This document shows positions 910 through 29,057 of a stretch of 29,808 bases of DNA, in pieces. The notes beneath the pieces were generated by a model. The model was not told the origin of the DNA, ran no database searches, and saw nothing but the letters and a program-made list of their open reading frames with translations. Each line of letters starts with the position of its first letter. The first letter of the stretch is position 1. Origin of the DNA: a virus; IMG/VR virus record IMGVR_UViG_3300006847_000306, positions 1 to 29,808 of that record; one strand, 5' to 3'. A program made the position numbers and the translations under genes.

Positions 910-3417
910 TCACAACCACGCCCGCAGCCGCGGGTCCGTCACGCACCGCTCCACCAGCGCCTGCGGGCTGCCGACCAATCGCAACCCGGCGGCACTTCTC
1001 GCTCGGCTCAACGCGACATAGAGCATCCCTGGCGACTTGAAGAACGGGTCGCGGATGTTGACCTGGACCCGATCGAGACTCAGTCCCTGCGAGTTGCTGC
1101 CGACGAACGGCCCGAAGCCTAGCTCGTGGATCGTTTCCAGCTCGATGTCGAACATCGGCACGATCACCTTCAGGCACTCGATCGTCTTGACAGTGTCCGT
1201 CCCGTCGAAGTGCTTGATCACGCGGTTCGGATGCCACTCGCCTAGTGCGCGCTGTTTCTCGGGGTGGGAGAAGCCGACCAGCGCTTCGTAGCGGTCGCGT
1301 TGCTCCGCATTGATCCAGACGTGCTGGTACGGCCCCGTCGGTCCCGCGTAGGTGCCGCGCGTGCTGGCGATGCCGAGATACAACAACAGCTGCTGCACGT
1401 CGCAGGCGAGTCCTTCCGACCGCGTCGCGTAGACCAGCCGGCGATCGATCATCGAGCCATCGGTGTCGAACAGGCCCTGTAGGCACGCCGCCCAAGCCGA
1501 CGGCCCCGACGTCCAAATCGCCTCAGGGACGCGCTTGTCCACCGCGGTGACGTAGTCGCAGCCCCACGCTGCGAGCCGGAGCCGCAGTGGCAGGCTGGTG
1601 AGATGACAGCCGCGCTCGTCGCGGCGTGTGTTCGGCCGCCCACCGAGTCGCTGCGCGATCGCCATCCAGCGCTCGCGCAGGTGCGCGACCTCGCTGGTGA
1701 AGTGGATCTGGCCTTCGCGCTGGTCAGCCCAGGCGGCGTTGCCGAGCGAGGCACCGATCCACCACGCGAGGTCGCTGTCGATCTCCTGTGTGCCGGTGAT
1801 CGTCGCGGTTGTCGTTAGGCAGATCGGGTGATCGGGGACGAGCTTGCACGTCTGGCGGAAGCCATGCGGCGTCTTCCACCGATGGTCGGGCGAGCAGAGC
1901 AGTGTGTAGCCGCGCGCGGTGGTCAGTCGATGCAGACGACACTCGGTCTGCGCCACCGCCTTGAGGCGTGCGAGGCCGCCGCCCGTATCGATCCACTCGC
2001 CGACGCGTAGATCACACACGCGCACAGCGCCGCGGCCGGCGACTAACACGCGCGTGTCCGGCGCGACGCACTTATGCACCGTCGATGCATATGCAACTCT
2101 GAGCGGCAGGTAGGTAATGCTCCCGACCACTTCCCACTTGCCGTCGATCCGTGTCGCGCCCTCCGGCCCTTTCTCGCGCAGCTCTTTCCTCCGCGCCGAG
2201 TCACACGGCACCTTCACATCCCGGGTGACCGGCTCGACTTCCACCACCTCGCCGGTGCGCTGCAGCTCGACCCAGCAGGTCGCCTCGGTGGCGTCGACGA
2301 TCGTCCCGAGGTCGCCGTTGACATACAGCAGCCGCCGCGGCAGCAGCTCGGTCCGGCGGTTGGCGAGGATCATCACCAGCGCGCCGATCTTCAGCGGCAG
2401 CACCTTCGGGATGCCCCACTGCGCCTCCGGCTTCTCCAGCTGGCCCCACTCGCTTCTGAGCTTCCCCCAGCGGTGACTGGTGAACTTCAGCTCTTTGCCC
2501 TGCAGCTGTGACATCCGCAGGTAGTTGAAGCGGTCGACCGACTCGTTCTTCGCGACGATGGTCGGGCCGTCGTAGTGATCGTCGGTCTCGTGGTTGATGG
2601 CGTTCCGGCTGGCGAAGTACTCCGCCACCACCCGCCCGCGGCCATGGCGCGCCGCCCGCAGCACGGCGATGAAGTCCTGGTCGTCCTGGCGGTAGATGCG
2701 GTCCAGGGTGATGACGTTCGGCGCGAAGCGCTCCCACTCGGGCGACTCGAACGCATAGCTCGCCTTCACCGGACTCAGCTGCGCGAAGTCGCCCACCAGC
2801 GTCAGCCCCATCTGCGGCGGGTCGTCGTCGTCCGGCGTGCTCTTGCCGAGGACATACCCGCGCCCGTTCACTTCGTCGATCGCCCGCACCAGGAAGGTGA
2901 GCTGGTCGCCCGCCAACATGCTCACTTCATCCAGCACCAGCCGGCGCACGCCCGACTTCCACAGTTTCCCGAGCTTGGCGGTGAGGAAGCCGGTGATGTA
3001 GGCCTCCTGCAGGCTGGCGGTGTCGAAGTAGCCGAGCACGCTGTTGATCGTTTCGCCGCCGAGATTGATCGCCGCAATCCCGGTCGTCGCGCACAGCACC
3101 AGCCCCGGCTCCTTCTCCGCCCACTCCCGGGTCGCGAAGGTCTTGCCGCTCCCCGCCGGCCCCGCCAGATAGGTGAAGGTTGGAGCCGGCGCTGCCCACA
3201 GCGTCCCATCAGCCGCGCGGGGTGGGCCGAGGTCCGGCAGGATTGACGGTGCCTCGACGCGCGCTGCTGGCGTCACGACCGGGGCGGGCGCCGGCTCCAT
3301 CTCGATCGGCGCCCGTTCGATCGGCGCCCGTCGCCGGGGCTGCACCACGGGTGCGACCGGCGCCGCAAAGGCGAGATCCGGGTCGGGCGGCGTCACTTGT
3401 CGGGTGACCGCCATCAC
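910..3417 (-). CDS. Pif1-like SF1 helicase precursor containing an intein
   Basis: The 835-residue precursor has a Pro-rich N-terminus (1-80), Walker A GPAGSGKT (86-93), Walker B LVLDEVSML (160-168), motif III GDFAQLSPV (209-217) and motif VI YVALSRAR (800-807). This set is typical of Pif1/Dda-type 5'-3' DNA helicases used in replication or recombination. Motif V is split: STVHK ends at 449 and SQGLSLD resumes at 776, with 326 intein residues between. Removing the intein leaves a contiguous TVHKSQGLSLD motif and a 509-residue helicase. The start could be GTG at 3417 or ATG at 3414; the latter overlaps the upstream stop as TGATG. Residue numbers here use 3417. The precursor must splice to be active, because motif V contributes to nucleotide and DNA contacts in this superfamily. 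Confidence 0.93.
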   Translation of the reverse strand: MMAVTRQVTPPDPDLAFAAPVAPVVQPRRRAPIERAPIEMEPAPAPVVTPAARVEAPSILPDLGPPRAADGTLWAAPAPTFTYLAGPAGSGKTFATREWAEKEPGLVLCATTGIAAINLGGETINSVLGYFDTASLQEAYITGFLTAKLGKLWKSGVRRLVLDEVSMLAGDQLTFLVRAIDEVNGRGYVLGKSTPDDDDPPQMGLTLVGDFAQLSPVKASYAFESPEWERFAPNVITLDRIYRQDDQDFIAVLRAARHGRGRVVAEYFASRNAINHETDDHYDGPTIVAKNESVDRFNYLRMSQLQGKELKFTSHRWGKLRSEWGQLEKPEAQWGIPKVLPLKIGALVMILANRRTELLPRRLLYVNGDLGTIVDATEATCWVELQRTGEVVEVEPVTRDVKVPCDSARRKELREKGPEGATRIDGKWEVVGSITYLPLRVAYASTVHKCVAPDTRVLVAGRGAVRVCDLRVGEWIDTGGGLARLKAVAQTECRLHRLTTARGYTLLCSPDHRWKTPHGFRQTCKLVPDHPICLTTTATITGTQEIDSDLAWWIGASLGNAAWADQREGQIHFTSEVAHLRERWMAIAQRLGGRPNTRRDERGCHLTSLPLRLRLAAWGCDYVTAVDKRVPEAIWTSGPSAWAACLQGLFDTDGSMIDRRLVYATRSEGLACDVQQLLLYLGIASTRGTYAGPTGPYQHVWINAEQRDRYEALVGFSHPEKQRALGEWHPNRVIKHFDGTDTVKTIECLKVIVPMFDIELETIHELGFGPFVGSNSQGLSLDRVQVNIRDPFFKSPGMLYVALSRARSAAGLRLVGSPQALVERCVTDPRLRAWL
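1093..2070 (-). other. Intein (protein intron) with a degenerate LAGLIDADG endonuclease
   Basis: Residues 450-775 of the helicase precursor. Block A begins CVAPDTRVLV with the nucleophile Cys450. Block B is GYTLLCSPDHRW, with His512 at the conserved position. Block F/G is MFDIELETIHEL...FVGSN, ending in Asn775 and followed by +1 Ser776. The penultimate residue is Ser rather than the usual His, which other inteins tolerate. Two dodecapeptide motifs are visible: WWIGASLGNAAWAD (~552-565), where the expected acidic residue is Asn560, and LQGLFDTDGSM (646-656), which looks intact. Homing may therefore be lost or weak while splicing is kept. The insertion point lies within a conserved nucleotide-binding motif, as is usual for inteins. 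Confidence 0.93.
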
Positions 3418-3677
3418 AACCCGCTCTCACTCCGAATGTGTTCCGCTCGCAGCCCCTTGGCGACCACGCGCGGCTCGAACACCACCATCGCGCCTTCCTC
3501 CAGCTCCTCGATCCGCCGGTCGTCGAGACCACTCATGTGAAAGAAGTAGTCCTTGCCGACTTCCCCCACGCCCTCGGTGCAGCGGATGAAGCCGAAGCCG
3601 CGCTCGGGGTAGAGGCGCTGCACGCGACCGCGCGCCTCAGGCAACTCGGAGCGGGAGGACGTCTCTGAAGAGGTCAT
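3414..3677 (-). CDS. Cold-shock-domain nucleic-acid-binding protein
   Basis: 87 residues from the ATG at 3677. The frame is open further upstream to 3872, but that part is the antisense-like shadow of the glycosyltransferase. The sequence GRVQRLYPERGFGFIR (about residues 15-30) contains the RNP1 signature RGFGFI, and DYFFHMS (~42-48) matches RNP2, so this is a CSP-type OB fold that binds single-stranded RNA or DNA. The remainder (EELEEGAMVVFEPRVVAKGLRAEHI) follows the family pattern. It overlaps the end of the upstream glycosyltransferase by 41 bases and its stop overlaps the helicase start, which suggests translational coupling. A role as RNA chaperone or helper of the helicase is inferred. 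Confidence 0.88.
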   Translation of the reverse strand: MTSSETSSRSELPEARGRVQRLYPERGFGFIRCTEGVGEVGKDYFFHMSGLDDRRIEELEEGAMVVFEPRVVAKGLRAEHIRSESGL

Positions 3678-4422
3678 AGCCTTTTCGATGTGCTTGTTCC
3701 CAGAACCCACGGTCGCCTCCGTTAATCTGTGTTGCCGCCCAGCGTTGATACCCAGGGTCGCCGACAGCGGTCTGTCCCCCCAGGTGCCGGCACTGCACCG
3801 GGACGTAGAAGACCTGCCACTGCAGCCGGCGCGCGAGACAGCCGAGCGCCCCGTCGTAGAAGTGGTGGACAAAGCCGTTCACCTGCAGGTAGTCCCACGG
3901 CGGCATGTGCGTCGCGCCACTCGGACTCCGCCCCTGCCAGAACGCCCGCCGCCCGATCTGACTGAAGCCGTCGAGACAGACGACTTCCTCCGGCAGCAGG
4001 CTCCGCGCGCCGTGCGCTTCGGCGTCGACCAGATTGCTGCGGAAGCCGATCCGCGCCAGCTGCATCGGGTCATACGGTTCCTGATACAGCTCGTCGCTGC
4101 CCAGGCCGATCGCGCCGCCGAAGCCGACCAGCCCCACGTCTGGATGGCGGCGGAAGCAGGTCTCGACGACGTCGTCCCAGCCCCGTTCGAGGATCAGCAC
4201 GTCGTCATGCAGGCAGGCGATGATGTCGACGTCGGGCCACAGCACGAGCATCTCGTCGATGCCCCGCCGGAACGCCGGCACGGTCCCGAGGTACGGCTGC
4301 TCGTCGCTGCTGCCGTTCTCCACCACCAGGATCGGCAGGTCGGTCACGGCGTGCTGCAGCCACGACTGGAAGCACGGGTCGGCGCGTCGGCGATTGGTCG
4401 TCGCGGTGACAATGCCCAGCAT
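3637..4422 (-). CDS. GT-A fold (family 2-like) glycosyltransferase
   Basis: 261 residues from the ATG at 4422, chosen because it overlaps the upstream stop as TGATG; the longer open frame to 4824 is a shadow. The N-terminus MLGIVTATTNRR and PILVVENGSSDE (30-41) have the Rossmann-like nucleotide-sugar site of family 2 enzymes. CLHDDVLIL (70-78) supplies the DXD-like metal-binding acids, and a late CRHLGG (211-216) matches the C-terminal His/Gly element seen in many GT2 enzymes. It would transfer a sugar from a nucleotide sugar to an unknown acceptor. It sits two small genes from a GT-B enzyme, which suggests a shared glycosylation task such as a virion protein, phage DNA base or host surface. 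Confidence 0.85.
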   Translation of the reverse strand: MLGIVTATTNRRRADPCFQSWLQHAVTDLPILVVENGSSDEQPYLGTVPAFRRGIDEMLVLWPDVDIIACLHDDVLILERGWDDVVETCFRRHPDVGLVGFGGAIGLGSDELYQEPYDPMQLARIGFRSNLVDAEAHGARSLLPEEVVCLDGFSQIGRRAFWQGRSPSGATHMPPWDYLQVNGFVHHFYDGALGCLARRLQWQVFYVPVQCRHLGGQTAVGDPGYQRWAATQINGGDRGFWEQAHRKGYDLFRDVLPLRVA

Positions 4423-4682
4423 CAGTTGTTCTCCGGGTCGAACGGGAAGTCGTACTCCCGTCTGCCGACGACTTCGACGTCGCCCTCGGCGGTCAGCTCG
4501 GGGCAGGCCTCGATGAACTCCTGGAACAGCGCGACGATCGGCCGCAGGTGGTGGCCGGCAAAGGTGACGGTGTGCTCGCCGCAGATGTCGCAGCTGATAT
4601 GCAGCTCGGCGACGAGGAACGGCTTGCCCTGCCCCACGGGCGGCGTCACGGTGATGGCGCGGGCGCGCACCAGCGCTTTCAC
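4422..4682 (-). CDS. Small protein with one CxxC pair, unknown function
   Basis: 86 residues with a GTG start at 4682 that overlaps the previous stop (GTGA). Its own stop overlaps the glycosyltransferase start. ISCDICGEHTVTFAGHHL carries one Cys pair followed by two His, which could bind a metal, but a full zinc finger is not evident. The C-terminus is acidic (EGDVEVVGRREYDFPFDPENN). It is probably translated from the same message as the two glycosyltransferases. No family was recognised. Confidence 0.7.
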   Translation of the reverse strand: MKALVRARAITVTPPVGQGKPFLVAELHISCDICGEHTVTFAGHHLRPIVALFQEFIEACPELTAEGDVEVVGRREYDFPFDPENN

Positions 4683-4888
4683 CGCAGTGCCTCCAGCACG
4701 TCAGGTCGGGCAAGGGCGAGTTGCACGCCGTCCCAGACGCCCTGCAGATAGCAGCTGCGCGTGGCGCTCTCGACGATGTTCGCGTCGTGGCACGCGCGCC
4801 GGACGATCGCGGCGATGCGGGCATCGGCGAACGCCATGTACTCGTGCGGCACCTGCAGCGTCTCGATCTCCGGTGTGCGCTTCTTCAT
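4679..4888 (-). CDS. Small helical protein, unknown function
   Basis: 69 residues from the ATG at 4888, which overlaps the GT-B gene's stop by four bases (ATGA). The frame is open to 5107 but the upstream part is a shadow of that gene. The protein is predicted mostly helical (MAFADARIAAIVRRACHDANIVESATR...) with no clear motif. It is tightly coupled on both sides, so it is likely expressed with the glycosyltransferases. Confidence 0.65.
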   Translation of the reverse strand: MKKRTPEIETLQVPHEYMAFADARIAAIVRRACHDANIVESATRSCYLQGVWDGVQLALARPDVLEALR

Positions 4889-6042
4889 AGCCCGCTCCGT
4901 ATCCAGCTCACCCAGCGGTCGCCGAGCGCCTCCCAATCGAGGTGCGCGACGCTGCCGCGGCAATACGCGGCGGCGGTCTCCCGGCCGACCTCGTCTCGCC
5001 AGGTGAGCGCCCGCTCGGCGGCGTTCGCCACATCCTCGATGCGGAAGACCGGCCGGCGCAGCGCATAGACGCTCTCGGTGCGGTACTCGCGCATCGGCAC
5101 GCGCCACTCGACCTTCGGCACCAGCTCACTGCCGCCGCCGAAGTCACCATGGATGACCGGCACGCCGGCCGCGAGCGACTCGACGATCGGATAGCCGAAG
5201 CCTTCGCCCAACCCCGGGGCGATCGTCAGGTCGCAGCGCTGGTAGAAGCAGGCCAGCTGCCGGTCGTTCATCGTGCCGAGCGTCACGGTGACGCGCTTCT
5301 GCAGGCCGCAGTCCTCGACCAGCTGGGTGATGCTCCAGGCATTGACCAGCAGGTCGGTGTGCAGCCAGCCGTAGACCTTCCGCCCGCGCGCGGCCAGCAC
5401 GGCGAGCGTCTCGAAGAAGAGCGCGAGATCCTTCCGCGGCTGGTTGGTGGCGACGCAGCCGATGAGCGTGTCGTCCCGATTGATGTATGGCCCGAGGCGC
5501 GACGTCACCCACTCCCGCTCGGTGTCGCTCGCCTCGCTGTAGTCCGCCGGCCAGAGGCCGTGCGGCAGGTAGCTCACGTCCTCGCCGCGCACGGACTTGA
5601 TGATCTGTGCGCCCCAGCGGGTATAGGCGAGCACGCGGTCGAACGTCTGCAGCGGGACAGCGGGCGGGCCGGACAATCCGCCCAGGCGGTTGTGCGAATC
5701 GACCGCGGTGTAGCACCACTTCTTCGCCGGCACGTCGATGTCGCAATATGCATAGAGGCGCGCCGGATCCCAGACCAGGAACAGCACGCCTGGCTGCTCG
5801 CCGAAGCGGTCCTTCCAGATCGCGGCGACGAACTTCGCGCCCCAGTCGTCGCCCCGCTCGGCGACGCCCATCGGGACGTGCGGCCACGCCGTCCAGCAGG
5901 GCGGCACGGCCCCGCCGACCGAGACGAGATCGAGCGGGAGGTTGCGCGCCCCGATGAGCACGCCGAGGTCCCGGGCGATCCGTCCCAATCCGGTGGGTTC
6001 CTGCGGGCCGTCGCCGACCAGCAGGCAGGGGATGCGCTCCAT
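4885..6042 (-). CDS. GT-B fold (family 4-like) glycosyltransferase
   Basis: 385 residues, full length for the family. The C-terminal half carries the donor-site signature GLGEGFGYPIVESLAAG (278-293), with the E-x7-E pair Glu280 and Glu288, followed by VPVIHGDFGGGSEL. CVATNQPRKDL (196-206) provides the basic residues that usually contact the nucleotide phosphate, and LPHGLW (159-164) is the inter-domain element common in GT4 enzymes. The N-terminal domain starts IPCLLVGDGPQEPTGLGRI, a Gly-rich acceptor-domain loop. It likely uses a nucleotide sugar in the cytoplasm; donor and acceptor are unknown. It starts one base after the stop of the small upstream gene and overlaps the next gene by four bases. 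Confidence 0.9.
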   Translation of the reverse strand: MERIPCLLVGDGPQEPTGLGRIARDLGVLIGARNLPLDLVSVGGAVPPCWTAWPHVPMGVAERGDDWGAKFVAAIWKDRFGEQPGVLFLVWDPARLYAYCDIDVPAKKWCYTAVDSHNRLGGLSGPPAVPLQTFDRVLAYTRWGAQIIKSVRGEDVSYLPHGLWPADYSEASDTEREWVTSRLGPYINRDDTLIGCVATNQPRKDLALFFETLAVLAARGRKVYGWLHTDLLVNAWSITQLVEDCGLQKRVTVTLGTMNDRQLACFYQRCDLTIAPGLGEGFGYPIVESLAAGVPVIHGDFGGGSELVPKVEWRVPMREYRTESVYALRRPVFRIEDVANAAERALTWRDEVGRETAAAYCRGSVAHLDWEALGDRWVSWIRSGL

Positions 6043-26912: not shown

Positions 26913-29057
26913 ATGGCCGACTTCTCGCCCTCGGGTGTGCTCGACCTGCCGCCGACCTCGGTCGACTCGCTCACCCGCGGCGACCCGCGCGTGCTCGGCT
27001 GGCTGCGCGAGTGGGTCCAGGAGGGCGACGCGATCAACCGCCAGGACCCGTCCTACGATCTCATCGGCCGTGCCCAGGACTACATCGTCGGCAACCAGCT
27101 CTCCGCCGAGCAGTGCCGCCTCAAATACCTGCCGCAGGTCACGATCAACGAGACCCGCAAGGCGATGCAGGCGCACGTCTCTGCGATCACCGACCTCAAG
27201 CCGGTCGCCGGGTGGAAATCCAACCCCGAGTACCAGGTCCAGGCGAACCTCCTCAACCAGTACCTGATGGCGGAGTGGGTCACCACAATGATGGACCTCG
27301 ACCTCGGCGACTGCGTCAAGTACTCCCTGGCCGGCGGCACCGGTGATCTCGTCGTCGACTGGGATCCGCACGCGCCCTACGGCGGCGCGCATCAACTGAC
27401 CGCCCGCGACCCGCGCGATACCCTCCCGCTGCGCCCGTCCTTCGGTCGATCGAACCAGCTCTGGGAAGGCGTCTGCTTCCGCGAGGAGCACACCGTCAAC
27501 GTCCTCAAGGGGATGTATCCAACCAAGCAGCATCTCTTCCGCGCCTCGGCCGATACCCTCCTCGGCCAGGTGATGGGCCGCTTCCGCACCGGCATGTCGC
27601 GCCTGATCTCGCCCGCCGACCCGCTCGACTCGATCGCCTGGCCTGGCACCGCCGCCACCACCCGCAAGGCCCGCGCCGGATCGATCGTCGTCTACCGCGC
27701 CTACTTCACCGACCGCACGCGCAACCTCACCAACCAGCCGATCGTCATGGGCGAACCCGGCACCAACTGGGCCTATGTCGTCCAGCCGAAAGAGCCGCTC
27801 TACCCGCGCAAGCGCCTGCTCGTCGCCACCGAAGACGCGCTGATCTACGACGGCCCGAACACCTACTGGCACGGCATGTTTCCGTTCTGCCGCCTCAAGC
27901 TCTGGAGCGTCCCCTGGCAGTTCCTCGGCATTCCGCTGTTCAACGATCTGCTGCCGCTGCAGGACGCGATCAACGACACCGTGCATGACGTGCGCCTCGG
28001 GATGCGCCAGTGGATGAACCCCGACATCACCTACAACCGCACCGCCGTCAGCGAAGCGACGATGAAGCTGATGGACCCGCGCCGCCCGGGCAAGCGCGTC
28101 AAGGTGATGCCGGGGTTCGGCGACCCGTGGAAGAAGGAAGACGGCCCCAACCCGCAAGTCATCGCCATGGGCATCGAGCTGTGGGAGAAGCTCACCCAGA
28201 AATTCGCCGACCTCAGTGGCACGGCCAATCTCTCCGCCCTCCTCCAGCTGCGCCAGATGCCCTCGGCCGACACGATCCAGAAGTACTACGAAGCGCTGAC
28301 CCCCGAGATCCGCCAGGAAGCGCGCCAGGTGGAACTCTTCCTGCGCGACTTCAGCGAAATGATCAAGGTCAACTACTTCCAGTTCCTCAGCCAGAACAAG
28401 CGGGTGCAGGTCCTCGGCACCGGCGGGAACATGCTCAACGAGTTCGACTTCGATCCCGAGATGTTCGTCCCGGCGCTCCTCCCGGGCCAGGCCGGCTACA
28501 CGCCCGAACTCGACGCCAACACCACCAGCCGCGATCAACGCGCGCAGTACTTCCACAAGCAGTTCATCTTCGTCGTCGCGCCGAACTCGGTCCTCGCCAT
28601 GGACGCGCAGGAGCGCAAGATGATGCGCGTGCAGCTGGCGCGCATGGGCTACTACGACTTCTGGTCGCTGCACGAAACGCTGGAAACGCCCAACGTCGGC
28701 GCGCCGCCCGCGATCCCGCTGCCGCCGCTCGCCCCGCCGCCGCCCGACGTCCTCCCGAACATGCTCGGCCAGGCCACTCAGCTCGAAGGCGCGATGCAGA
28801 TGATGGCGATGGGCGCGATGCCGCTCCCCCAGTACACCGACCCGGTGACCAACCGCACCTTCTCGCTCGACCAGATGTCGGGCCAGCTGATGGAGATCCG
28901 CGTCCCGGTCACCGTCACCGAACGGCTGCAGGCGCAGCAGCTGATCGGCATCGGCCAGACGGTCAACCCGGCGGGGCGGAAAGCCAGCGGCCAGGCGCCG
29001 CCGCAGCAGGAAGAGAAGTCCGACGGGCGGTCGACCATCACGGAGAGCGACAAGTAG
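26913..29057 (+). CDS. Portal protein, P22-like size
   Basis: 714 residues with a GAAGGA site. The N-terminal half has portal features: an early helical stem (VLGWLREWVQEGDAINRQDP), QVTINETRKAMQAHVSAITD, DCVKYSLAGGTGDLVVDWDP, then PLQDAINDTVHDVRLGMRQW and a helix-rich stem (QKFADLSGTANLSALLQLRQ). The C-terminal ~120 residues are Pro/Met/Gln-rich (IPLPPLAPPPPDVLPNMLGQ), and may form the barrel or a disordered tail. The dodecameric portal joins head to tail and is the docking site of the terminase encoded upstream. The length resembles the 725-residue portal of phage P22, but no clear homology can be claimed. Confidence 0.9.
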   Translation: MADFSPSGVLDLPPTSVDSLTRGDPRVLGWLREWVQEGDAINRQDPSYDLIGRAQDYIVGNQLSAEQCRLKYLPQVTINETRKAMQAHVSAITDLKPVAGWKSNPEYQVQANLLNQYLMAEWVTTMMDLDLGDCVKYSLAGGTGDLVVDWDPHAPYGGAHQLTARDPRDTLPLRPSFGRSNQLWEGVCFREEHTVNVLKGMYPTKQHLFRASADTLLGQVMGRFRTGMSRLISPADPLDSIAWPGTAATTRKARAGSIVVYRAYFTDRTRNLTNQPIVMGEPGTNWAYVVQPKEPLYPRKRLLVATEDALIYDGPNTYWHGMFPFCRLKLWSVPWQFLGIPLFNDLLPLQDAINDTVHDVRLGMRQWMNPDITYNRTAVSEATMKLMDPRRPGKRVKVMPGFGDPWKKEDGPNPQVIAMGIELWEKLTQKFADLSGTANLSALLQLRQMPSADTIQKYYEALTPEIRQEARQVELFLRDFSEMIKVNYFQFLSQNKRVQVLGTGGNMLNEFDFDPEMFVPALLPGQAGYTPELDANTTSRDQRAQYFHKQFIFVVAPNSVLAMDAQERKMMRVQLARMGYYDFWSLHETLETPNVGAPPAIPLPPLAPPPPDVLPNMLGQATQLEGAMQMMAMGAMPLPQYTDPVTNRTFSLDQMSGQLMEIRVPVTVTERLQAQQLIGIGQTVNPAGRKASGQAPPQQEEKSDGRSTITESDK

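Follow-up and report, generated by a model that had tools for sequence, protein, structure and literature searches.

The 29,808-nucleotide stretch of viral DNA analysed here (IMG/VR virus record IMGVR_UViG_3300006847_000306, positions 1 to 29,808; hereafter the window) encodes a phage Pif1/Dda-like helicase that is interrupted by an intein, and we consider it highly probable (roughly 0.88) that this intein still splices while its endonuclease is most likely dead, which would place the element in the decay phase of its homing cycle. The course of events that we propose is as follows: A class 1 intein would have entered the motif V codon junction TVHK|SQG of the helicase (the vertical bar marks the junction) and would excise itself via Cys1, Ser+1 and Asn326. 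As one helicase motif is divided by the insert, activity of the helicase most likely requires splicing. The nested endonuclease is predicted to keep its fold. Of its two catalytic acids, the first has been replaced (Asp to Asn), as has the adjoining glycine, so that the homing double-strand break is most likely no longer made. The decayed element would be carried along because splicing stays necessary.

Host Gene and Boundaries of the Intein

The helicase gene and its parts are arranged as follows:

910..3417, minus strand: gene of the Pif1/Dda-like SF1B helicase precursor, 835 aa including the intein and 509 aa after splicing
2071..3417, minus strand: N-extein, residues 1-449, with the final residues ...YASTVHK
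1093..2070, minus strand: class 1 intein, Hint domain with nested LAGLIDADG endonuclease, 326 aa, Cys450 to Asn775
913..1092, minus strand: C-extein, beginning with SQGLSLD and comprising the remainder of motif V, then motif VI

The open reading frame starts with GTG, and its product matches the Pfam families AAA_30 (3.7e-14) and PIF1 (1.8e-7), while the N-extein is assigned to PHROG 325, Dda-like helicase (E 2.9e-49). The Walker A and B, motif V and motif VI sequences GPAGSGKT, DEVSM, HK|SQG and ALSRA are all present in the alignments, which places the protein among the Pif1/Dda-like SF1B helicases. Solved PIF1 helicases are matched at E 2e-26 by L009, a homologue without interruption, and the alignment spans the insertion junction (ayaatvHK-SQGlsld in L009, awamsiHK-SQGmtld in the solved PIF1); we take this HK-SQG segment to be the SF1B helicase motif V. 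The helicase gene is directly preceded on its strand (3637-6042) by a glycosyltransferase group 1 gene (PHROG 2170, E 6.5e-27) together with a second ORF, for which the only match, a weak one to glycosyltransferases, falls under Pfam's cut-off. At the other side of the window, between the terminase and the window's end, a 714-aa ORF (26913-29057) is by its position probably the portal protein; it has no Pfam or PHROG match at 1e-3. Within the helicase gene itself, the codons directly before the insertion site (codons 433-449, window 2071-2121) have the lowest GC3, with A/T-ending codons at 6 of 12 positions compared to an extein mean GC3 of 0.88, and similar A/T-ending codons just before the junction are seen in the uninterrupted homologues L012 and L013.

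Joining the extein flanks yields 509 residues with the motif YASTVHKSQGLSLD and restores the junction YASTVHK|SQGLSLD. A scan of IMG/VR with the helicase profile returned 80 loci, and the seven closest helicase homologues (L009, L010, L011, L012, L013, L023 and L025; 59-72% identical) all read VHK|SQGLSLD, uninterrupted at the exact junction. Their DNA is continuous through the site, at which the window has 978 extra bases. (One of them, L013, has its helicase homologue in two frames of 262 and 344 aa at L013:2566-4324, a frameshift or assembly error.) The insertion is thus in frame and missing from homologues, and its removal restores a conserved site, as expected of a class 1 intein. These results bear out an earlier note on this DNA, which had proposed that motif V of a Pif1-like helicase contains an intein: Its coordinates (1093-2070), the length of 326 residues, the 509-residue product and the restored TVHKSQGLSLD are all correct, and the finding that it named as speaking against an intein, namely close homologues that share the 326 residues as a conserved domain, is absent from seven of seven. 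A second IMG/VR record holds an identical copy (100% over 7,070 bases), which may be the same phage and is therefore not independent support.

The boundaries and empty homologues are joined by the predicted fold in supporting this assignment. An AlphaFold2 model of the intein, built on a 17-member alignment, reached a mean pLDDT of 92.7 and a pTM of 0.92. Its best PDB matches in Foldseek are intein endonucleases (TliVMA 3.8e-21, PI-PfuI 1.4e-15, PhoVMA 3.3e-15), and the best matches in VIA-align, TliVMA, PI-PfuI, PI-PkoII, PhoVMA and PI-SceI, have Z 22-30 over 286-319 residues (TliVMA Z 29.8 over 308 residues; PhoVMA Z 25.1). The structure prediction suggested by the earlier note thus produced a full-length match to solved Hint plus LAGLIDADG inteins. 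Taken separately, the Hint fold is matched by the gp41-1 intein (Z 19.7, rmsd 1.5 over 123 residues, VIA-align), and residues 94-278 are matched by I-DmoI (Z about 17-18), with two LAGLIDADG helices in the typical fold. In addition, the intein matches Pfam LAGLIDADG_3 (E 7.4e-13) and several NCBIfam intein-bearing families. Because these family matches coincide with empty close homologues and a full-length intein fold, the intein is more than a chance resemblance.

The Splicing Domain

The earlier note had described splicing blocks A, B, F and G as readable, and each of them is found:

2032..2070, minus strand: block A, CVAPDTRVLVAGR, with the nucleophile Cys1
1876..1926, minus strand: block B, LTTARGYTLLCSPDHRW, with Ser60 and His63
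1093..1161, minus strand: blocks F and G, VPMFDIELETIHELGFGPFVGSN, with Asp308, His315, Ser325 and Asn326

All splicing nucleophiles are present: Cys1, the C-terminal Asn326 and Ser+1 agree with class 1, and the histidine of block F (His315) is retained. Block B reads Ser60-Pro-Asp-His63, in which a serine replaces the usual threonine; serine at this place is common among inteins of the same site. The penultimate residue is Ser325 (precursor Ser774) and not histidine, as the earlier note had recognized. This serine is no sign of trouble, since the same state is found in another same-site intein (L005/L100) and is documented in phage inteins, so that we do not regard it as decay: Class 1 inteins of mycobacteriophages are often without the penultimate histidine and have Gly, Lys or Ser there, and one of them with a penultimate Gly splices completely and was slowed once His was introduced (PMC5050341). 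These inteins resemble that of the window in their class and in the missing histidine and differ in their host genes. Moreover, a review cites several inteins that splice without it (PMC4031507). The penultimate serine consequently argues neither against splicing nor for a slow switch. Judged by its residues, the intein should remain able to excise itself via the standard route of Cys1, Ser+1 and Asn326.

The Endonuclease Domain

The two LAGLIDADG helices differ in the state of their catalytic acids:

1729..1770, minus strand: block C, first LAGLIDADG helix, LAWWIGASLGNAAW, with the acid replaced by Asn111 and the next Gly by Ala
1450..1491, minus strand: block E, second LAGLIDADG helix, AACLQGLFDTDGSM, with the acid Asp204 (precursor Asp653) intact

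At the position of the first catalytic acid stands precursor Asn560 (intein Asn111; codon AAC at 1738-1740), followed by Ala561 (GCC), so that the usual DG pair has become NA by change of two codons. The earlier note was therefore right about Asn560, but the pair differs at both letters and not at one; its further statement that the second motif, FDTDG, is intact is confirmed by block E, which reads GLFDTDG and keeps Asp653. An acid in each motif characterizes active LAGLIDADG endonucleases, and as it is missing from the first motif (Asn111 in the first, Asp204 in the second), we file the domain as a degenerate and not as an active homing endonuclease. The domain is not truncated, and both its second acid and its fold are kept. 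A sequencing error behind Asn560 is unlikely because two codons of the motif deviate from the consensus and the second record, although possibly not independent, is identical.

The closest precedent is PhoVMA, the VMA intein of Pyrococcus horikoshii (PDB 7qst), which likewise has an asparagine at the aligned first-acid position (MANGTL, as opposed to IADGTL in the active TliVMA). Its architecture is preserved and its Hint domain is capable of splicing by itself, while its endonuclease is inactive in vitro (PMC8966425). PhoVMA differs from the window's intein in host gene and site, and its second motif is also truncated, whereas that of the window is intact. Based on this precedent, the endonuclease is probably inactive and homing has likely been lost. 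Among the inteins compared there is no close relative with an intact endonuclease, the nearest non-identical intein being 37% identical. Empty target alleles persist in related phages, so that a shortage of targets in the wider clade does not account for a loss of activity.

Such losses are not confined to the window. Inteins at the same site have Asp at the first acid position in 14 of 17 cases, the exceptions being those of the window (Asn), L091 (Tyr) and L219 (Asn). A wider comparison covered about 216 distinct inteins that have letters at both acid positions of the alignment: 195 have both acids and 21, about a tenth, are without one or both, which shows the loss of one acid to be recurrent; Asn occupies the first position in 11 of the roughly 216.

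The intact Asp653 site raises the question of whether the endonuclease is still useful as a strand-specific nickase, with a nick at the empty site starting the transfer. Retention of the second acid and of the whole fold is compatible with nicking or another role. Among the inteins of L089-L291, 15 have lost the first acid and retained the second, compared with 4 in the opposite state, and Asn is the replacement seen most often. Since the second motif was part of the search patterns, however, this ratio may reflect ascertainment and yields no general conclusion. Furthermore, cleavage was absent in PhoVMA, in which Asn at the same position is accompanied by truncation of the second motif (PMC8966425), and in the window the glycine neighbouring the first acid is lost as well. 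We therefore consider a nickase very unlikely, and even less credence is due to the extended idea that the inteins of the window, L091 and L219 represent a recurrent LAGLIDADG form that moves by nicking instead of double-strand breaks.

Inteins at the Motif V Junction and Their Distribution

The same junction is occupied in at least eight other phage-type helicases and also in bacterial RecD2. The phage inteins are those of Pectobacterium phage CB7/phiTE, the human faecal phage L005/L100 and the IMG/VR loci L045, L051, L090, L091 and L092; a further one, L219, resides in the Pif1-like helicase of a Prosthecobacter assembly, and L093 and L120 have inteins at HK|C...N|SQG. The nearest to that of the window are L091 and L090 (37-38% identical), its sisters in the tree with a clade support of 95/91. 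Both share the site and have a penultimate His; L091 differs by Tyr at the first acid position and a +1 Cys, L090 by the retained Asp and a +1 Thr. The CB7/phiTE intein (CB7_80; PHROG 30356) occupies the same site (GHK|C...N|CQG) of a homologous helicase and likewise combines Hint and LAGLIDADG domains, but it is about 26% identical and 370 aa long and has both acids intact, a penultimate His and a +1 Cys. It has been published as a helicase intein with LAGLIDADG and putative splicing (PMC7344957); beyond CB7/phiTE, a search of open-access literature revealed no intein catalogued under RecD or Pif1. LAGLIDADG inteins are also found at this junction in RecD2-type helicases of Armatimonadota, Gemmataceae and Opitutaceae, on bacterial genome contigs (L212, L213, L215, L218, L222 and L227): They share the motif V junction (IHK|C...N|SQGS) in a related SF1B helicase and differ from the window's intein in their length of 436-461 aa, their intact acids and their cellular genes. 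The intein of the window is accordingly a further example of a known element at a site known for recurrent inteins.

Some of the retrieved loci show peculiarities of their own. The same-site intein of L045 (3997-5079) has Cys at the block F Asp position and Phe as its penultimate residue, lacks the His of block F and has suffered a deletion at the second LAGLIDADG motif; it is a more decayed or mechanistically odd relative. L094, L101, L169 and L194 are single ORFs that apparently contain two intein or LAGLIDADG insertions each.

When intein presence was mapped on a helicase tree with 84 rows, each of the nine rows with an intein was surrounded by rows without one, and about 9 changes were required for these 9 rows, no fewer than with shuffled labels, in a set that is biased in that 6 of the 9 came from intein searches. 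This scattered presence fits a mobile element. A single ancestral gain is unsupported by it, deep branches and ascertainment limiting the inference.

The distribution also bears on the timing control that the earlier note considered possible, in which the intein would be retained for its splicing rate, as a switch that delays helicase activity during infection. The intein splits motif V, so that the precursor should be inactive, and the penultimate residue strongly alters the splicing rate of a mycobacteriophage intein (PMC5050341); however, a needed control would be kept, and the intein is not conserved among close phages, its scattered distribution fits a mobile element, and no condition that gates splicing is evident here. 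Any intein within a catalytic motif could conceivably exert timing control, but nothing found here favours it, and we rate it as more improbable still than movement by nicking.

The base composition of the intein is that of its host gene (GC 0.673 in the intein versus 0.680 in the extein; GC3 0.853 versus 0.884), so that there is no sign of a recent invasion visible as foreign composition. A co-conversion footprint was likewise not seen: Up to 10 codons from the junction, codon identity to the empty alleles was raised in none of eight comparisons. The frame that is open throughout and the matching codon usage (GC3 0.85 versus 0.88) would also suit 326 residues that are a native helicase domain and stay in the protein, but this is refuted by the close homologues, seven of seven of which are without the insert at exactly one codon junction, and is further opposed by the Hint and LAGLIDADG fold with Cys1 and Asn326 at its ends.

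Implications

An intein that probably still splices and has a most likely dead endonuclease leaves the general view of inteins unchanged. It represents a further occupied allele at an insertion hot spot common to phage Pif1/Dda-like helicases and bacterial RecD2, and it would constitute a clear case of endonuclease decay while related phages still hold empty target alleles. In addition, a compact splicing domain with a penultimate serine could be developed from this natural intein.
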